Part shown: piece by piece, positions 27,601 through 50,098 of the stretch
Position numbering within the stretch: the stretch's first letter is position 1
How the letters are laid out: every line of letters starts with the position of its first letter
Origin: Candidatus Woesearchaeota archaeon
GTDB taxonomy: Archaea; Nanobdellota; Nanobdellia; Woesearchaeales; SM23-78
Length of the DNA: 64,000 bases
Reading direction: 5' to 3'
Assembly (NCBI GenBank): GCA_016935175.1
Contig: JAFGRK010000018.1
Location: 44,773 to 108,772 of the forward strand
Program-made: the position numbers and the translations under genes
The notes under the pieces: model-generated
Database searches by the model: none
What the model saw: only the letters and a program-made list of their open reading frames with translations
Told to the model about the DNA's origin: nothing

Positions 27601-27614
27601 ACTACGGCTGCCGG
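27601..27614. repeat. Direct repeat of tRNA-Gly 3' end (copy 2; copy 1 at 27718-27731)
   Basis: ACTACGGCTGCCGG identical at 27601-27614 and 27718-27731. Confidence 0.85.
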
Positions 27615-27719
27615 CAGACAAAAATCGTTACACGATCGTTGATTCGTCAACTTTGCAGTTGTCGAGGACAAAAACATTTCACAATTTTTGGGCCGCCAGC
27701 CTCCGTTCGCTTTGCTTAC

Positions 27720-27855
27720 TACGGCTGCCGGGAGTTTCGTCACTCAGCATATCAATGCTGTAGTTGTTGTCGAACCCGAACCAAGAGCTCTTTTCATGAG
27801 GCTTTATTAAAGCTTCATATGGGAAGCTCCGATCATACCGCTAGACCACAGCCGT
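27720..27855 (-). tRNA. tRNA-Gly(CCC) with two introns (about 30 nt at 37/38; about 35 nt in the T-loop)
   Basis: Acceptor ACGGCTG/CAGCCGT; D arm TGGTCTAGCGGTATGATC; anticodon stem GGAGC/GCTCT with loop TT-CCC-A|intron|A; T stem TCGGG-TTCGA|intron|CT-CCCGG; intron hairpins ATGAAGCTTTAATAAAGCCTCAT and CAGCATTGATATGCTG. Confidence 0.8.
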
Positions 27856-49854: not shown

Positions 49855-50098
49855 GGGCCCGTAGCCTAGCCTGGCAAGCCTTTAACGAAAGCCTTGAGGG
49901 AAAAACTTAAGGGGGATATTCGCTAACGCTCAATCCCCCGAACTAAGAAAGATTTCGTTTTGGCTTGAGCACATAGGGCGACAGCCTTCTACCCAATGGA
50001 TGAGAAATCCTTGGGATGAGAGCTGTAGGTCGTGGGTTCGAATACTTTCGGACTGGTTCGAAAGGAACAAGACAAAGTCGACTTTCCCACCGGGCTCA
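49855..50098 (+). tRNA. tRNA-Arg(UCU) with three introns (about 97 nt in D-loop, 29 nt at 37/38, about 42 nt in T-loop)
   Basis: Acceptor GGGCCCG/CGGGCTC; GCCTAGCCTGG|intron|CATAGGGC; ACAGC-CT-TCT-A|intron|A-GCTGT; GTGGG-TTCGA..|intron|..CCCAC; removing the three inserts leaves a 76-nt cloverleaf. Confidence 0.88.

Follow-up and report, generated by a model that had tools for sequence, protein, structure and literature searches.

We consider it very probable that the tRNA-Gly(CCC) locus of this Woesearchaeales genome is a functional gene with two archaeal-type introns, that these would be removed by the BHB endonuclease EndA and the exons ligated by RtcB, and that the second intron belongs to a large class located at position 59/60 of the T-loop, which would act as a shared landing site for introns copied among tRNAs.

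The tRNA-Gly(CCC) gene

The window, a stretch of 64,000 nucleotides, belongs to a genome of 1.22 Mb in 35 contigs (93.6% complete). The genome lies in the Woesearchaeales, and the best named matches of the RfcL protein encoded next to the gene are mostly Candidatus Woesearchaeota MAGs. The gene is located on the minus strand (27721..27855) and has 135 nt, with a mature tRNA of 70 nt. Read on that strand, it starts with ACGGCTG TG GTCT AGCGGTAT GAT C GGAGC TTCCCA, followed by a 30-nt intron (27790..27819, minus strand) at the canonical position 37/38, and continues with A GCTCT TGGT TCGGG TTCGAC, a 35-nt T-loop intron (27734..27768, minus strand) and T CCCGG CAGCCGT. The first-pass annotation had described inserts of about 30 nt at 37/38 and about 35 nt in the T-arm, and both lengths proved exact. 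The acceptor stem, ACGGCTG/CAGCCGT, has 7/7 pairs. In silico removal of both inserts gives a perfect Gly(CCC) cloverleaf with every stem intact, and ARAGORN calls tRNA-Gly(ccc) after excision of the T-loop insert. The same T-insert finder detected two tRNAs in the real window, Gly(CCC) and Arg(TCT), against none in 20 dinucleotide-preserving shuffles of it.

Both standard tRNA finders, ARAGORN and Rfam, miss the gene in the unedited sequence, which would speak for a tRNA pseudogene with random insertions. However, both inserts fall at known intron sites, no stem is damaged once they are removed, and the intact, intronless tRNA-Gly(CCC) that the first-pass annotation had set against its own reading was not found in the 93.6% complete assembly, nor was any other second copy; a pseudogene is therefore extremely improbable. 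Regarding the exact site of the T-loop cut, it is ambiguous by one C, because this residue can belong to either side: 58/59 and 59/60 give an identical product, so that "after A58" and "after C59" are equivalent. The earlier placement after A58 thus holds for the product; an insertion strictly after A58 was rejected, since BHB geometry prefers 59/60. Downstream of the gene, a 17-nt near-perfect direct repeat of its 3' end (27601-27617 and 27718-27734, 117 bp apart) has an att-like look, or could be a partial duplication.

Splice junctions and the splicing endonuclease

In the BHB register of the Gly T-loop junction, the T-stem is the outer helix, and the exon U54-U55-C56-G57 pairs with CGAA of the intron 3' end (CGAAAC) in a four-pair central helix, with the bulges A-C-A on the 5' side and A-C-U on the 3' side. 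The cut rule applied takes two nucleotides before and one after each cut, and this standard two-plus-one bulge therefore places the cuts at 59/60. In the minimum-energy fold of the pre-tRNA, the central helix and the 3-nt 3' bulge are present, with a 6x2 loop on the 5' side, so that the site is a relaxed and not a strict BHB. The fold shows a symmetric loop at the 37/38 junction, where the BHB register keeps 3/4 central pairs, with one C.A mismatch. The BHB folding named as a check by the first-pass annotation was thus recovered only for the central helix and 3' bulge of the T-loop junction. In the wider set of 160 T-loop introns, a strict inner helix is formed by 43 (9.6 expected after shuffling) and a near-strict one by 67 (21.7 expected), and 50 have no helix beside the 5' bulge, against 129 expected by shuffling. 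Many of these introns are simple hairpins.

Covariation between tRNA nucleotide 57 and intron nucleotide -6 was analysed in 96 genomes with a completeness of 95% or more (the genome described here is at 93.6%), using patterns that differ only at these two nucleotides and a reversed-pattern control. The A-U combination gave 235 matches against 18 in the control, G-C 90 against 26 and G.U 37 against 22; A.C gave 25 against 25, which is background overall, although a few A.C-pattern loci nevertheless resolve as tRNAs. As most introns were found with patterns assuming TTC/GAA, the covariation is informative for 57 : -6 and not for 54-56. At the sequence level, it supports exon-intron pairing in a BHB helix built from the conserved U54-U55-C56-R57. 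We propose that in the 59/60 introns of Woesearchaeales tRNAs the T-stem would be the outer helix and U54-U55-C56-R57 would pair with an intron YGAA as the central helix, EndA probably cutting after nucleotide 59 and before nucleotide 60 and RtcB probably joining the exons. U54-U55-C56-R57 hardly varies among tRNAs, so that an intron with YGAA near its 3' end would fit almost any isotype, and the T-loop would therefore be a shared landing site, at which introns may be gained by copying from tRNA to tRNA.

The genes for EndA and RtcB are both present in the genome. PF01974 genes are as a rule one per genome, including the single-contig genome G016 (177 aa), and by gene count the Woesearchaeal EndA should be of the alpha4 type, with a diverged partner subunit possible. 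The EndA of this genome aligns with that of M. jannaschii (1a79) without the gaps that appear, matched by position, opposite the insertions of the A. pernix (3p1z, CSL) and ARMAN-2 (4fz2, ASL) enzymes. A broad-specificity endonuclease of the CSL or ASL type was accordingly rejected, both loop insertions being absent from the aligned protein. The ARMAN-2 (epsilon2) and crenarchaeal ((alpha beta)2) endonucleases belong to the same family and occur in hosts rich in non-canonical introns, whereas the Woesearchaeal enzyme is short, encoded by a single gene and without ASL or CSL insertions. The alpha4 type is described as inefficient at removing introns with relaxed motifs (PMC6379350), and there is a real tension between the many relaxed predicted junctions and this loop-less, single-gene EndA. 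The EndA of this genus also has at its N-terminus a Lys/Glu-rich extension (about 30 to 75 aa; L098:239-988, L061, L064), absent in G016.

Recurrence of T-loop introns

The tRNA-Arg(TCT) gene (49855..50097, plus strand), 22 kb away, is interrupted at the same T-loop site, as the first-pass annotation had noticed. It has three introns on the plus strand: one of 96 nt in the D-loop (49876..49971, junction approximate), one of 29 nt at 37/38 (49992..50020) and one of 42 nt at 59/60 (50043..50084). A search allowing T-loop inserts identified T-loop introns in ten tRNA genes of the genome, namely Gly(CCC), Arg(TCT), Asp(GTC), Gln(TTG), Gln(CTG), Pro(GGG), Val(TAC), Ser(CGA), Ile(TAT) and Ile(GAT), in a census that is incomplete, being drawn from searches and sequence stretches. 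Only 11 tRNAs of the genome are above the Rfam cut-off. As for other sites, D-loop introns after G19/G20 recur in the genome and its relatives (49876-49971; L016; L106; L084), and this is likely a second hot spot; introns near 37/38 also occur in tRNA-Phe(GAA) (21864-21750, minus strand) and in a probable tRNA-Trp(CCA) (30632-30512, minus strand).

The suggestion of a site recurrent in the lineage extends well beyond this genome. The strict G-C T-loop pattern matches 154 of 359 Woesearchaeales genomes; of 98 genomes sampled from the phylum beyond this order, 12 match by hand count, some of them by chance. From the fetched loci we resolved 147 distinct T-loop introns (median length 38 nt) from 80 genomes, spanning 17 isotypes and 38 anticodons; in 58 of the genes the resolver detects no further intron. 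Some tRNAs with D-loop introns escape the automatic resolver, which may also misassign anticodons or choose wrong D-loop introns, so that isotype and D-loop counts are approximate. Most of the genomes compared are draft metagenome assemblies; G016, however, is a single contig rated 100% complete, and all five of its G-C pattern matches resolve as T-loop introns, therefore assembly error is not the cause.

Similar introns in different tRNAs

The T-loop introns appear to move between tRNAs. The Arg(TCT) intron is identical at 40 of 42 positions to the T-loop intron of Asp(GTC), on another contig of the same genome (L016), and in both the central helix has only 3/4 pairs. Gene conversion, or a partial duplication of a tRNA 3' half, would have carried exon sequence together with the intron, as may be seen in a few pairs with an identical 3' exon (for example Val/Ser of G147, 12/12) and in the 17-nt repeat found 117 bp downstream of tRNA-Gly. 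In the Arg/Asp pair, in contrast, identity is only 8/20 in the exon before the intron, 6/12 in the exon after it and 8/30 in the trailer. Exon and trailer flanks are dissimilar in most similar-intron pairs, and in Arg/Asp, G216 and most G205 pairs the similarity stops exactly at the intron boundaries; we regard conversion or duplication as very unlikely. The spreading site proposed by the first-pass annotation thus gains support from Arg and Asp and not from the Gly-Arg pair that it had named: a comparison of the Gly and Arg T-loop introns shows no homology (19/47 identical, z -1.7).

Similar introns within one genome also include Arg/Gly of G216 (24/24), Val/Pro of G214 (24/25), Gly/Gln of G206 (46/51), Arg/Gly/Cys/Leu of G205 and Arg/Glu of the single-contig G016 (41/47). 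Regarding different isotypes, 15 of 133 pairs from the same genome are similar (11%), against 36 of 9606 from different genomes (0.4%), about 30 times as frequent, in a sample enriched for genomes with several matches, whose rates are not order-wide frequencies. These likenesses could in principle be convergence on a constrained hairpin, the introns being ancestral to each tRNA and now being lost, since splicing constrains the YGAA 3' end and many introns are simple hairpins. However, the scoring of similarity left out the final 6 nt, and neither the same-genome enrichment nor cross-isotype identities of 40/42 and 24/24 are expected under convergence; introns of the same isotype in different genomes are seldom similar (6 of 839). 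An ancestral origin with convergence is therefore very unlikely, a little more so than conversion or duplication, and copying between tRNAs is the preferred reading.

The intron most similar to the Gly(CCC) T-loop intron itself lies in a Glu(CTC) gene of G004, a genome of the same genus (28/38, z 5.2). Upstream of RfcL, G004 has a tRNA-Gly(CCC) with no intron and G005 one with a 37/38 intron only; within the genus, therefore, the T-loop intron either was gained in the genome described here or was lost in others. The probe used found no tRNA-Gly near RfcL in the near-relative L067.

Introns in the T-arm or T-loop, tRNAs with as many as three introns and the transposition of introns are already established for Thermoproteales and others (PMC4090602, PMC4033280, PMC6379350, PMC3293823). 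The transposed BHB introns of Thermoproteales are credited to Fujishima et al. 2010 on the citation of PMC4090602 and PMC4033280. These introns and those of the Woesearchaeales have in common that similar introns occur in different tRNAs, with up to three per tRNA and at non-canonical sites; the Woesearchaeales, a DPANN order, differ in their recurrent generic T-loop site at 59/60, in the 57 : -6 covariation and in an EndA lacking the Crenarchaea-specific loop. For other archaea, BHB introns of the T-loop or T-arm have already been reported (PMC6379350, PMC12397907; Caldiarchaeum, PMC3293823); in the accessible text of these papers such sites are mentioned without an order-wide hot spot, unlike that of the Woesearchaeales. 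Our literature search, with subscription journals mostly outside its reach, found no paper on tRNA introns of Woesearchaeota, and the order-wide hot spot appears to be previously undescribed.

In the current view, many non-canonical tRNA introns are tied to endonucleases with special loops, and in the Woesearchaeales abundant T-loop introns occur alongside a loop-less, single-gene enzyme. Because ARAGORN and Rfam RF00005 miss many tRNAs with T-loop introns, such genomes may seem short of tRNA genes. We put forward tentatively, as somewhat short of probable, that these introns may be small mobile RNAs for which the universal U54-U55-C56-R57 is a generic half-BHB landing site, hopping between isotypes and possibly lineages, and that their endonuclease may process relaxed motifs although it has neither the CSL nor the ASL loop. 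The shared T-loop sequence would explain how one intron suits any tRNA, and how introns move in archaea could be studied on the many similar copies found in different isotypes.
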